Shown piece by piece: positions 7,680 through 64,000 of a stretch of 64,000 nt of DNA. Positions within the stretch are counted from its first letter, which is position 1. Each line of letters begins with the position of its first letter. The notes under the pieces are model-generated. The model was not told the origin of the DNA. It saw only the letters and a program-made list of their open reading frames with translations, and searched no databases. The DNA is from Sinorhizobium psoraleae (GTDB taxonomy: Bacteria > Pseudomonadota > Alphaproteobacteria > Rhizobiales > Rhizobiaceae): positions 1,170,577-1,234,576 of the forward strand of contig NZ_JABEKV010000001.1 in assembly GCF_013283645.1 (NCBI RefSeq), in the 5' to 3' direction. The translations under genes and the position numbers were made by a program.

Positions 7680-9425
7680 ATGAAGAAGAAAGCTGAGTGG
7701 CCGCGCAAACTCCGTTCGCAGGAATGGTTCGGCGGTACGGGCAAGAATGCCATCATGCATCGCTCCTGGATGAAGAACCAGGGGCTACCCGCCGATACCT
7801 TCGATGGCCGGCCGATCATCGGCATTTGTAACACCTGGTCCGAGCTCACGCCGTGCAACGCGCATCTGCGTGACCTTGCAGAGCGCGTAAAGCGCGGCGT
7901 CTATGAGGCAGGCGGCTTCCCGGTGGAATTTCCTGTCTTCTCGACGGGGGAAAGCACACTCAGGCCGACGGCGATGATGTTCCGCAACCTCGCGGCCATG
8001 GATGTCGAAGAAGCGATCCGCGGCAACCCGGTCGATGGCGTCGTGCTGCTCGGCGGCTGCGACAAGACCACGCCCAGCCTTCTGATGGGGGCGGCGAGCG
8101 TCGACATTCCGGCGATCGTCGTCTCCGGCGGACCGATGCTCAACGGCAAATGGCGTGGCAAGGATGTCGGCTCCGGTACCGCCGTCTGGCAGTTTTCCGA
8201 AATGGTCAAGTCCGGCGAGATGTCGCTTGAGGAGTTCATGGACGCCGAGCAGGGCATGGCCCGTTCGGCGGGAAGCTGCATGACCATGGGTACGGCCTCG
8301 ACCATGGCGTCGATGGCCGAAGCGCTCGGCATGACGCTCTCCGGCAACGCCGCCATCCCAGCAGTCGACGCGCGCCGTCGGGTAATTTCGCAGCTCACCG
8401 GCCGGCGCATCGTCGAGATGGTCAAGGAAGACCTGAGGCCTTCCGACATTCTGACGAAGCAGGCCTTCGAAAACGCCATCCGCGTCAATGGCGCGGTCGG
8501 CGGTTCGACCAATGCCGTGTTGCACCTGCTCGCCCTTGCCGGGCGCGTCGGCGTCGATCTTTCTCTCGATGATTGGGATCGGCTCGGCCGCGACGTGCCG
8601 ACGATCGTCAACCTCCAGCCGTCGGGCAAGTACCTGATGGAGGAGTTCTATTACGCCGGCGGCCTGCCGGTCGTCATCAAGGCCGTGGCCGAGATGGGGC
8701 TTCTGCACAATGACGCAATCACGGTCAGCGGCGACACCATCTGGAACGACGTCAAGGGCGTCGTCAACTACAACGAAGACGTGATCCTGCCGCGCGAAAA
8801 GGCGCTGACGAAGTCGGGCGGCATCGCGGTGCTGCGCGGCAACCTTGCCCCGAGGGGAGCGGTGCTGAAGCCCTCCGCCGCATCGCCGAACCTCATGCAG
8901 CACAAGGGCCGCGCGGTCGTCTTCGAAAGCATCGAGGACTATCACGCGCGCATCAACCGTGAAGATCTCGACATCGACGAGAACTGCATCATGGTGCTGA
9001 AATATTGCGGTCCAAAGGGATATCCCGGCATGGCCGAGGTCGGCAACATGGGCCTGCCGCCGAAGGTCTTGAAGAAGGGCATCACGGACATGATCCGTAT
9101 TTCCGATGCGCGCATGTCGGGAACGGCCTACGGCACGGTTATCCTTCACACGGCACCCGAAGCCGCGGAGGGGGGGCCGCTGGCGCTCGTCGAAAACGGC
9201 GACCTGATCGAAGTCGACATCCCGAACCGCACGCTTCACCTCGACGTTTCGGACGAGGAGCTTGCCCGCCGCCGCGCGGCCTGGGTCTCGCCGGTTCAGC
9301 CGCTGACTGGCGGTTACGGCGGGCTCTACATCAAGACCGTTATGCAGGCGGACACCGGTGCCGACCTCGACTTCCTCGTCGGCGCGCGCGGCGATCGCAT
9401 CCCGATGGACCGCGACAGCCATTGA
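7680..9425 (+). CDS. araD: IlvD/Edd family dehydratase, probable L-arabinonate dehydratase
   Basis: A 581-residue member of the IlvD/Edd Fe-S dehydratases. Three cysteine sites expected for the cluster are visible: CNTWSELTPCN near residue 44, GGCDKTTPS near 124 and GSCMTMGTAS near 198. Length and sequence resemble the rhizobial pentonate dehydratases (L-arabinonate/D-xylonate) more than IlvD itself. The neighbouring sugar importer, gguC and semialdehyde dehydrogenase support conversion of L-arabinonate to 2-keto-3-deoxy-L-arabinonate. A ribosome site (AAGAGGAAACG) precedes the ATG. Exact sugar acid is inferred; D-fuconate or D-xylonate are alternatives. Confidence 0.82.
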   Translation: MKKKAEWPRKLRSQEWFGGTGKNAIMHRSWMKNQGLPADTFDGRPIIGICNTWSELTPCNAHLRDLAERVKRGVYEAGGFPVEFPVFSTGESTLRPTAMMFRNLAAMDVEEAIRGNPVDGVVLLGGCDKTTPSLLMGAASVDIPAIVVSGGPMLNGKWRGKDVGSGTAVWQFSEMVKSGEMSLEEFMDAEQGMARSAGSCMTMGTASTMASMAEALGMTLSGNAAIPAVDARRRVISQLTGRRIVEMVKEDLRPSDILTKQAFENAIRVNGAVGGSTNAVLHLLALAGRVGVDLSLDDWDRLGRDVPTIVNLQPSGKYLMEEFYYAGGLPVVIKAVAEMGLLHNDAITVSGDTIWNDVKGVVNYNEDVILPREKALTKSGGIAVLRGNLAPRGAVLKPSAASPNLMQHKGRAVVFESIEDYHARINREDLDIDENCIMVLKYCGPKGYPGMAEVGNMGLPPKVLKKGITDMIRISDARMSGTAYGTVILHTAPEAAEGGPLALVENGDLIEVDIPNRTLHLDVSDEELARRRAAWVSPVQPLTGGYGGLYIKTVMQADTGADLDFLVGARGDRIPMDRDSH

Positions 9426-61186: not shown

Positions 61187-62275
61187 ATGGCAACTCTTCA
61201 GAATTTTGACGCGGAAATCGAAAAGACGAGGGGTGTCGTCGAAGAGATGCGCGGCAAGCTCGAACAATCTGGCGTTGTCCTCGAGCAGTTCGCCAAGGCC
61301 GACACCAAACTCGGCGACGTCAACTTCGATATCGAAAACGCCCGCATCCAGGATGTGATCAACCAGCAGAAGGTGATGGAAGCCAACATCGCGGATCTTA
61401 TCATCGGGCTGGAGGATGCGACCAACGTCTTTGGCTCCGAATTCGAAAGCATGAAGAGCTATACCGGCTACGAGAAATTCATCGGCATGTTCTCCAAGCA
61501 GAAGATGCAGCGATTGCGGACCGATCGCGTGCGCAACATGTCGCTTGCAGGCAACCTGCAGGAACTTCTCGTCAAATCCGATACCATCGTCGGTATCCTC
61601 AAGGACCAGAGAGCGATCCTCGACCAGCGCTACAAGACGTCCGAGCAGAGCCTCATCAAGGTGATCGACCGCCGCAAGGGCACGATGGCGGCGCTTGAGC
61701 AGGTTCAGAAGCGCATCGAGGAACTCAACCCGCTATTGCTCGACATCGAGAACCGGATCGCCGCTTCGACTGACCAGAAGACGAGAACGGAGCTGGAAGG
61801 TGAGCGGTCGACGCTTGCGACGGAATATAACGAGAAGCAGGCGAAGGAGCAGGAACTGCTCGCCGAGAGCCAGACGCTCGAGCGCTACACCTCGATGTTC
61901 CAGACCTTCGTCGATTCCCTCAACAACCAGATCGCGGCCCAGAACACGTTGATCAACAAGCTGACGATCGATACCGAACAGCGCATCGTGCTTTACAAGT
62001 CGCTGGAGGATTCGTTGAAGACCGCGGCTCAGCAGGATGTCGCGCACAAGATCAACACGCTCGGAAGCCAGGTCGATACCGCCGCCGAAGAGACCATGGC
62101 CGGCATCGGTGCGGCGGCGCAGCGTCACATCGGCGACCTGCTCGAAATGCATGAAAAGAACATGCTCGCCACGCAGGATATCCAGCGGCGCAAGAAACTG
62201 GCCGACGATGCCTTCGCCCGTCGCTTCCAAACGGTGATGGACAAGCACAATGCGGCAAACTACGTGAAGCAGTGA
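61187..62275 (+). CDS. Unassigned coiled-coil protein, first gene of a three-gene operon
   Basis: A 362-residue, almost wholly alpha-helical, charged protein with no signal peptide or membrane helix. Heptad-like stretches run through IEKTRGVVEEMRGKLEQSGVVLEQFAKADTKL, a middle part with a short conserved-looking GYEKFIGMFSKQKMQRLRTDRVRNMSLAGNLQELL, and QTLERYTSMFQTFVDSLNNQIAAQNTLINKLTIDTEQR near the end. The overall shape recalls TelA-type (toxic anion resistance/Tel) proteins, but the match is by shape only. Start ATG 61187 after GGGGGATGGA. It is 61 bases before the next gene. Confidence 0.75.
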   Translation: MATLQNFDAEIEKTRGVVEEMRGKLEQSGVVLEQFAKADTKLGDVNFDIENARIQDVINQQKVMEANIADLIIGLEDATNVFGSEFESMKSYTGYEKFIGMFSKQKMQRLRTDRVRNMSLAGNLQELLVKSDTIVGILKDQRAILDQRYKTSEQSLIKVIDRRKGTMAALEQVQKRIEELNPLLLDIENRIAASTDQKTRTELEGERSTLATEYNEKQAKEQELLAESQTLERYTSMFQTFVDSLNNQIAAQNTLINKLTIDTEQRIVLYKSLEDSLKTAAQQDVAHKINTLGSQVDTAAEETMAGIGAAAQRHIGDLLEMHEKNMLATQDIQRRKKLADDAFARRFQTVMDKHNAANYVKQ

Positions 62276-62336
62276 TCGGCAAGGCGGCAATGACCAGATT
62301 TCCGACCGCCTTTCGGCGCCTGCCGAGGGATTAGGC

Positions 62337-63485
62337 ATGAACACCGCCGCATCCGTAGCCGTACGGCAATATTTCACCTCCATCCGGTCCGCGCTCGCGG
62401 GGCTCGAGCTGTTTCTCGGCGACCGCAATTCACCGCTTTACCGCAACACGGTGGTGGGCGAGGTCATCGTTCCCTATCTCGCCCGGTTGAAGTCCTCGAT
62501 CGCCTGCTGGGAGAATCGCATCGGTTTCGTCGAACGGTTCCGGATTTCACGCGCTGAAAGCGGCTTCCCGGTGTTCCAGAATGTGCTGGAGCTGGAAAAC
62601 GACCGGCAGAGTGCGGAAAAGCGTCTGGCGAGCATTCCTCCTGCCGATGCGCTCCGCGAGGAGATGGCCGACTTCATACTCAGGCAGAAGGCGTTTCCGG
62701 AGGTGCTGCAAGCCCGCATGGCCGAAAGGCTCTACCTCGAGCAGATCGGCAAGGGCGATATATTCTCGCCCTTCATCCTGCCGGAGACGATCCGGGTCGC
62801 GGTCAACCCTAAGACGATGAGGCCCTATTACGTCGTCTCCTGGGGCGCCTTCGACGGCACCCAGACGCTCCCCATGGTTTACATGGCGACGATCGAGGAT
62901 TCGTCGGAAAAGATCGTCGAGATGTTGGTTACGCGTGACGGCAAGCTCAATCCGGACATCGAGATTCCACTGCCGGTCGGCGGTCTGCTCAACCCGGAAC
63001 TTGCGAGCCGCTTCGATGACTTCGCCTCGAAGAACAGCGCCTATTCGCTGACGCCGGTGACGATCGCCACGAATCTCGACAAGGATTTCCCGGAACTCCA
63101 TCCGAAACAGCTTCGGCGCATCGTGCTCGGCCCCTTCTATTCGGCCGGGATCACCGAGAATAATGCCAGGATCAACGACATCCTTTCCAAAGTGCGCAAG
63201 ACGGAAAATGCCTGGCTTTTGACCTGGACGGTGCAGGAGGTTTTCTCCAAGGCCGAGCGTCCGGCGGAGCGCGGCTTCTGGTCCTCGACGCCGGCGCAGG
63301 AGGAGTTTCACATCGATACGGACAATCTCGAGGCTGCCCGGATGGGCGTCAGCTCTTACGAAAAGCATGCGCTCGTGCCGCACGATGCCTATCAGGCGCT
63401 CTACGCCGCGGGCGAAGCCGGTGAGGTTTTCGGGGACTACAAGGTGCACGTGATTTCCGGCAACCAGGTGGTGAGCGAGGTTTGA
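62337..63485 (+). CDS. Unassigned cytosolic protein, second gene of the operon
   Basis: A 382-residue soluble protein I do not recognise. The N-terminal third is helical (SVAVRQYFTSIRSALAGLELFLGDR, LARLKSSIACWENRIGFVERFR), then a more globular part with PFILPETIRVAVNPKTMRPYYVVSWGAFDGTQTLPMVYMATIEDSSEKIVEML and VTIATNLDKDFPELHPKQLRRIVLGPFYSAGIT. There are no cysteine clusters or nucleotide loops. It ends 2 bases before the next ATG. The start ATG 62337 is preceded by GAGGGATTAG. Confidence 0.7.
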   Translation: MNTAASVAVRQYFTSIRSALAGLELFLGDRNSPLYRNTVVGEVIVPYLARLKSSIACWENRIGFVERFRISRAESGFPVFQNVLELENDRQSAEKRLASIPPADALREEMADFILRQKAFPEVLQARMAERLYLEQIGKGDIFSPFILPETIRVAVNPKTMRPYYVVSWGAFDGTQTLPMVYMATIEDSSEKIVEMLVTRDGKLNPDIEIPLPVGGLLNPELASRFDDFASKNSAYSLTPVTIATNLDKDFPELHPKQLRRIVLGPFYSAGITENNARINDILSKVRKTENAWLLTWTVQEVFSKAERPAERGFWSSTPAQEEFHIDTDNLEAARMGVSSYEKHALVPHDAYQALYAAGEAGEVFGDYKVHVISGNQVVSEV

Positions 63486-63487
63486 CC

Positions 63488-64000
63488 ATGACGCTGAATA
63501 CCGGCCTGACGACGCTGCACGAGGACGATATCGCGAAGCATCAGGCGACAGCCCAGAGCCTTGTCACCAAGCTGGTCATCCTCGAACGGGACGACGCATC
63601 CGGGGGAACGCCGCTCGCCGGCACCGGCCGTCGCTTTGTCTCGACCGTTTCGACCGGCGGGCAGCGCCGCACGCGCGAGATCGAGCTTCAGCGCACGATC
63701 CAGTCGGTGCGCGGTGCCGATCCGCTCTTTTCGCCGGCCCAGCATGCCGTCCTTTACCGGACGCGCCGGGGCATTCAGGTCGCGCTTGCCGTCGCCGACG
63801 TCTTCGGGCGGCAGACGAATCTCGAGCAATTGCAGGCGCGCAACGCCACTGCGCCGCTCGGCGGCGAGGAGGCGAGCCAATTCAAGCGGTTGCTTTCGGC
63901 CGCCGCCTATGTCGCCGCCTTCACGCTCGCGGCCTATCTGGGCGCGACGCTGCAGGGAGAAGGCGAGCCTGTCGATGATGCGTCAGAGCCGGATTTTCTC
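63488..64000 (+). CDS. Unassigned protein, third gene of the operon, partial (C-terminus beyond window)
   Basis: 171 codons, still open at the window end. It begins TLNTGLTTLHEDDIAKHQATAQSL, has a basic segment TGGQRRTREIELQRTIQSVRGADPLFSPAQHAVLYRTRRG, and a hydrophobic stretch LLSAAAYVAAFTLAAYLGATL that could be a transmembrane helix, followed by an acidic run. Two bases separate it from the previous stop, so the three genes are one transcript. Not recognised. Confidence 0.7.
   Translation, partial: MTLNTGLTTLHEDDIAKHQATAQSLVTKLVILERDDASGGTPLAGTGRRFVSTVSTGGQRRTREIELQRTIQSVRGADPLFSPAQHAVLYRTRRGIQVALAVADVFGRQTNLEQLQARNATAPLGGEEASQFKRLLSAAAYVAAFTLAAYLGATLQGEGEPVDDASEPDFL

Follow-up and report, generated by a model that had tools for sequence, protein, structure and literature searches.

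An AAA+ ATPase operon conserved in rhizobia and a candidate site of contact on its coiled-coil first product

The last genes of the window, by which we mean the whole 64,000-base stretch of Sinorhizobium psoraleae DNA analysed here (bases 1170577-1234576 of its contig), begin an operon whose continuation was read on the contig. The operon consists of five genes, designated A-B-C-D-E, the first three of which fall within the window (Table 1). Three tightly spaced genes on the plus strand, with gaps of 61 and 2 bases, had been described in an earlier reading made from the window's sequence alone (hereafter the sequence-only reading), and the open reading frames bear this out; completed from the contig beyond the window, C reaches 638 residues. 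Upstream of A lie tdk and a cytochrome c gene and downstream of E lies fhs, and the surroundings also hold choline transport genes, DUF1993 and an extensin-like gene. The host genome is 7.43 Mb in size, with its nearest named relatives in Sinorhizobium/Ensifer, and its B is 99% identical to the counterpart in Sinorhizobium sp. 8-89. Sequence scans of the locus detected no excess of promoter-like sites (0 versus 1.8 in shuffles) or of terminator-like sites (7 versus 6.9 in shuffles).

Table 1. Genes and features of the operon; positions refer to the window unless another record is named
Feature	Position	Strand	Description	Basis
Gene A	61187..62275	+	coiled-coil protein of 362 aa that opens the operon	ORF; orthologues in order at 79/80 loci
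A codons 273-294	62003..62068	+	includes SLKTAxQQxxAHxIN; putative site at which the C/B/D machine docks	conservation and gap analysis
Gene B	62337..63485	+	382 aa, without Pfam match	ORF, 61 bases after A
B residues about 150-310	62784..63266	+	faint T-fold likeness	VIA-align on predicted fold
Gene C	63488..64000	+	AAA+ ATPase, codons 1-171 of 638; continues past the window	start ATG 63488, 2 bases after B
C residues 135-153	63890..63946	+	borderline hydrophobic segment	19-residue hydropathy mean 1.69; 1.22-1.75 in four relatives
Gene D	L002:7454-8743, outside the window	+	DUF6638, 429 aa, 49 bases after C	
Gene E	L002:8747-9973, outside the window	+	DUF2333, 408 aa, 3 bases after D	

Using B as the query, we fetched 80 rhizobial loci, and in 79 of these A, B, C and D follow one another in order on one strand, which excludes a chance arrangement. 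E lies close behind D in 78 of the 79 ordered loci, the remaining one (L073) ending at a contig edge, and at most 5 bases separate B from C in 69 of the 79. That adjacent genes share a function, as the sequence-only reading proposed, is strongly supported by this kept gene order together with the co-occurrence of the genes. Within the window's family C was found in 116 of 199 genomes and A in 124, including all 116 that are positive for C. The eight family genomes with A and without C comprise six carrying a diverged A-like gene (A'; three from genus g2, two from g5 and one from g246), an unfinished assembly (G404, 68% complete) in which A is present, C was not found and the contig stops inside B, and one genome (G314) whose A match sits inside a 1623-residue frame at E 5.6e-4 and is taken as spurious.

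The conserved core of the operon is ABCD. In addition to the rhizobial loci, the four genes stand in order in six other genomes (L103-L108), four of which belong to family f16, one to another family within the same taxonomic order and one to another class; identities to the window's proteins are 41-43% for A, 27-33% for B, 48-52% for C and 31-34% for D. Two Vibrio records also have ABCD in order (A 37, B 30, C 39 and D 26% identity), and the plasmid collection has four Vibrio records with C. A sample of 299 genomes from across the phylum has C in 20, and D in those same 20. In the class to which G050 belongs, 165 genomes yielded C in G050 alone, the genome from which the query was taken. One Rhizobiaceae assembly (L081) has a split operon, with ABC together and E (1255-113) and D (2557-1274) on the opposite strand, several kilobases upstream. 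Two plasmid-labelled records of 3.7 and 3.5 Mb (L131, CP090106.1, and L228, NZ_CP104131.1) carry the locus; since it sits with tdk and fhs in L131, as it does in the window, these may be mislabelled chromosomes.

The sequence-only reading could name no motif in these genes, a fair statement for the window itself, since C reaches its Walker A motif only after base 64000. C matches the AAA family (PF00004) at E 2.2e-10, with 41.5 bits against a curated cut-off of 21.2, and its nearest solved relatives, at weak E-values, are an i-AAA protease, AFG2 and proteasomal ATPases. Motifs were counted over 104 distinct complete C sequences: Walker A (GDGxPGTGKT) and a pore-loop-like YQGKS are present in all 104, Walker B occurs as GFGT(I/V)DD(V/I)DQ in 102, and the sensor-1 and arginine stretch is found in 101-103, depending on the pattern used, with one of the exceptions (L063) reading out of frame at that place. 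We take YQGKS to be the pore loop, and name the sensor and arginine residues, from alignment with proteasomal ATPases and general knowledge. The sequence match to these classical AAA ATPases (AFG2, the proteasomal ATPases and the i-AAA protease) is weak but consistent; C shares with them Walker A, YQGKS and the sensor-1/arginine stretch, but it has N- and C-terminal regions of its own, its own gene partners A, B and D, and DD rather than DE in Walker B. The Walker B consensus is hhhhDE, in which the Glu is catalytic. The second acid of C is Asp, not Glu, and Asp-Asp in place of Asp-Glu is unusual in an active AAA+ motor; the Asp may still serve, and with Asp replacing Glu the turnover of ATP by C may be slow. 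The single likely membrane helix assigned to this gene by the sequence-only reading is only borderline (Table 1), and a clearer segment is present in E, where the 19-residue hydropathy mean is 1.87 here and 2.34 in one relative.

Neither A nor B, the 382-residue protein that the sequence-only reading called unfamiliar, is convincingly matched by a model of Pfam, NCBIfam, PADLOC or PHROGs. The strongest Pfam match in 14 relatives of A, to a eukaryotic coiled coil at E 0.0018, concerns one member only, and the profile of A retrieves two coiled-coil designs from solved structures at E 0.45-0.51. A is predicted to be all-helical, at low confidence (mean pLDDT 63). The structures that VIA-align lists for A, including VIPP1 and a TelA-LXG toxin chain, have scores usual for any helical bundle and were given no weight; the TelA of that toxin chain is a different TelA, and absence from a structural fold list excludes no family. 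Twelve relatives of B returned no family match better than E 0.048, and the single match of the B profile to solved structures, a Csm6 chain at E 0.049, is not believed. The predicted structure of B is of moderate confidence (mean pLDDT 73.6), and the likeness of its second domain to the T-fold proteins uricase, dihydroneopterin aldolase and GTP cyclohydrolase (Z ≤7.1, rmsd 3.9, 124 residues) is below the trust level that VIA-align advises. Foldseek with B reached a best E of 0.18, and its top row lies outside the T-fold group.

D matches DUF6638 (PF20343) at E 2.2e-74, above the curated cut-off, and its profile has no match among solved structures; E matches DUF2333 (PF10095) at E 5e-17 (62.3 bits, cut-off 22). 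Both are families without assigned function. Our literature search found no paper on DUF6638, and the one paper found on DUF2333 describes it as conserved but uncharacterised (PMC5256989). The fifth position is occupied by DUF2333 in rhizobia and by DUF1523 after D in L103-L107, and in Vibrio mfd comes after D; next to ABCD, no relative of DUF2333 turned up in Vibrio, in L103-L108 or in L130, L132 and L133. DUF2333 occurs in 68 of the 299 genomes across the phylum, many of them without ABCD, and in eight DUF2333 regions without ABCD there is no A-like gene nearby. Because DUF2333 occurs without ABCD and ABCD without DUF2333, E is not an obligate part of the system, and its role as an obligate fifth subunit is ruled out.

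The space between C and D is 49 bases in the window's genome. Across the 80 loci, counting the window's contig and with both genes on the plus strand, it exceeds 300 bases in 54 and is 150 bases or less in 25. This space is an insertion slot inside a conserved operon, taking up toxin-antitoxin or DUF559 genes. In the representatives read, ParE-type toxins stand there beside an HTH gene in L033 and beside an RHH-like frame in L032; L028 has an RHH gene, L079 a Phd-type antitoxin and L017 a DUF559 nuclease. A hydrophobic protein of 111-120 aa lies between C and D in two genomes of f16 (L104, at 8565-8927, and L107), and that of L104 has no Pfam match.

When A is compared in ten-residue blocks over representatives that range from rhizobia to Vibrio, conservation peaks at 281-290 (0.85), inside the 273-294 stretch, with 271-280 and 221-230 next (both 0.83). 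Of 91 complete sequences of A, 90 carry the pattern SLKxAxQQxxAHxIN, or 89 of 90 when only distinct ones are counted, the full set including near-identical and a few duplicate sequences; the exception (L075) has undetermined letters at this place. A plasmid copy in Rhizobium leguminosarum (L133) has C as well as the 273-294 stretch of A.

The query that finds C in 116 of the 199 family genomes finds it in none of the 60 g2 genomes, and all 60 keep A'. Thirty of these A' loci were read (L188-L217): DUF2333 follows A' in all 30, no relatives of B, C or D lie in the stretches read, the SLKxAxQQxxAHxIN pattern is present in 0 of the 30, and the alignment places the gap in every one at exactly residues 273-294 of A. 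Among the remaining 30, one (G107) was read and agrees, and for the other 29, represented by profile-match limits only, the match ends at 271-278. Genus g5 (L179, L219) has tdk, A' and DUF2333, without B, C and D and without the 273-294 stretch. In g246 the operon is complete in one species (L220), and a second species (L218) has only a diverged A' with DUF2333 behind it. The stretch is present in none of the three A' from g5 and g246. In all five fully read g2 and g5 regions tdk precedes A', with fhs downstream in two (L176, L178), an arrangement that equals the window's own gene order minus B, C and D. A' looks to be under selection; the NG86 dN/dS values from three comparisons are 0.19, 0.31 and 0.33, the last two being rough since dS exceeds 1. 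The losses are few events: those in g2 and g5 are perhaps one, as the tdk-A'-DUF2333 order is common to both, and that in g246 is a second, separate one because species with the full operon and with A' only share a single genus.

Our preferred, though tentative, reading, to which we give a little less than an even chance, is that the products of ABCDE form one conserved and uncharacterised AAA+ remodelling machine, in which the motor C would engage A through residues 273-294 and E would tether A. AAA+ ATPases of the kind to which C belongs are expected to form rings and to thread protein through the pore. C would accordingly be the ATPase motor, probably a ring threading protein through its pore, with B and D as dedicated adaptor or scaffold subunits, and A would be an elongated coiled-coil partner gripped by the motor near its C-terminus, at residues 273-294 and perhaps to about 311. 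Hydrolysis of ATP would pull on, unfold or disassemble A or its cargo. In rhizobia E, through its single membrane segment, would anchor A at the inner membrane; in five loci of other families D is followed by a DUF1523 gene instead. Since the stretch is missing where B, C and D are missing, it is most simply explained as the place where A would meet the C/B/D machine, the rest of A working with DUF2333, an account drawn from loss patterns of few events. The data show the gene order, the orthology, the co-occurrence, the AAA+ motifs and this shared absence; the physical interaction, the threading, the membrane tether and the direction of action are inferred from them and from what is general in the family. 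The main alternative to a docking site is that the stretch was lost by drift once B, C and D were gone, and it could also make contact with B, D or a substrate.

A narrower version of the remodelling machine takes as its working analogy Vps4, the AAA+ ATPase that acts with ESCRT-III. DUF2333 or DUF1523 would anchor assemblies of coiled-coil A to the inner membrane, and C, with B and D as adaptors, would grip SLKTAxQQxxAHxIN and dismantle them; with the motor lost, A would lose the grip and stay as a scaffold with DUF2333. The two systems are alike in combining an AAA+ motor with a helical partner and in the proposed grip near the C-terminus, but C is without an MIT domain, only AAA-type Pfam models matching it at E up to 10. 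As to the ESCRT-III/PspA proteins, A has no detected similarity to PspA (profile-profile probability ≤2.0%, in a comparison whose PspA-PspA control was weak at only 58%). We consider this version rather unlikely.

In three genera the A'-DUF2333 pair persists although B, C and D are absent. Together with the dN/dS values of A' (0.19-0.33 in three comparisons), this would also fit an independent envelope scaffold made of A and DUF2333, with BCD standing apart as an AAA+ unit whose only part is to regulate or recycle that scaffold. Outside rhizobia, however, A accompanies BCD with no DUF2333 relative found adjoining, and the eight DUF2333 regions free of ABCD are without an A-like gene, and we hold such a scaffold to be fairly improbable. 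Defence against phage or plasmid invasion, with ABCD sensing or countering the invader, A acting as its sensor or effector and C regulating it as the AAA+ protein, is suggested by patchy presence (C in 116/199 family genomes) and by the toxin-antitoxin and DUF559 genes gathered in the C-D slot. Yet PADLOC returned only weak matches, of the AAA domain of C to TRIP13 and IetA models, and 0 homologues of C were found in 50,697 phage records; the operon is highly conserved and in many rhizobia holds a fixed position between tdk and fhs rather than forming a shifting island. We judge a defence or stress role to be distinctly unlikely.

The sequence-only reading had suggested a possible membrane- or stress-associated complex, for example of the Tel/Ter type, and had likened A to TelA (PF05816). 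Its membrane link is plausible by way of E, but the Tel/Ter identity fails. A is long and helical and resembles TelA in length, but it is without sequence or profile similarity to it: a Pfam scan of A reaching to E 10 does not list PF05816, nor is it among the weak families listed for 14 A relatives (25 of 36), and the A-TelA profile-profile comparison gave 0.3-1.4% probability, against 88.4 and 99.9% in TelA-TelA controls. TelA was not found in the window's genome, and no Ter or Tel genes lie nearby, either on its own contig, where the neighbours read past base 64000 hold none, or at the annotated S. meliloti locus (17.9 kb). Tellurite or toxic-anion resistance with A as a TelA relative is therefore hardly credible to us. 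Some genomes that hold ABCD, for example G071, have a TelA gene elsewhere.

Among these explanations we favour the AAA+ remodelling machine. This four-gene AAA+ system, widespread among rhizobia and extending to other families and to Vibrio, has no name or role in the literature searched. The short stretch of A that is missing together with B, C and D provides a precise candidate for the site of contact, and an entry point to the function of the system. From the order of S. meliloti tags, SMc02733 may be gene B. Fragment F9 of a S. meliloti DNA-binding screen for ChvI, a symbiosis regulator, lies inside SMc02733 (PMC3687685).
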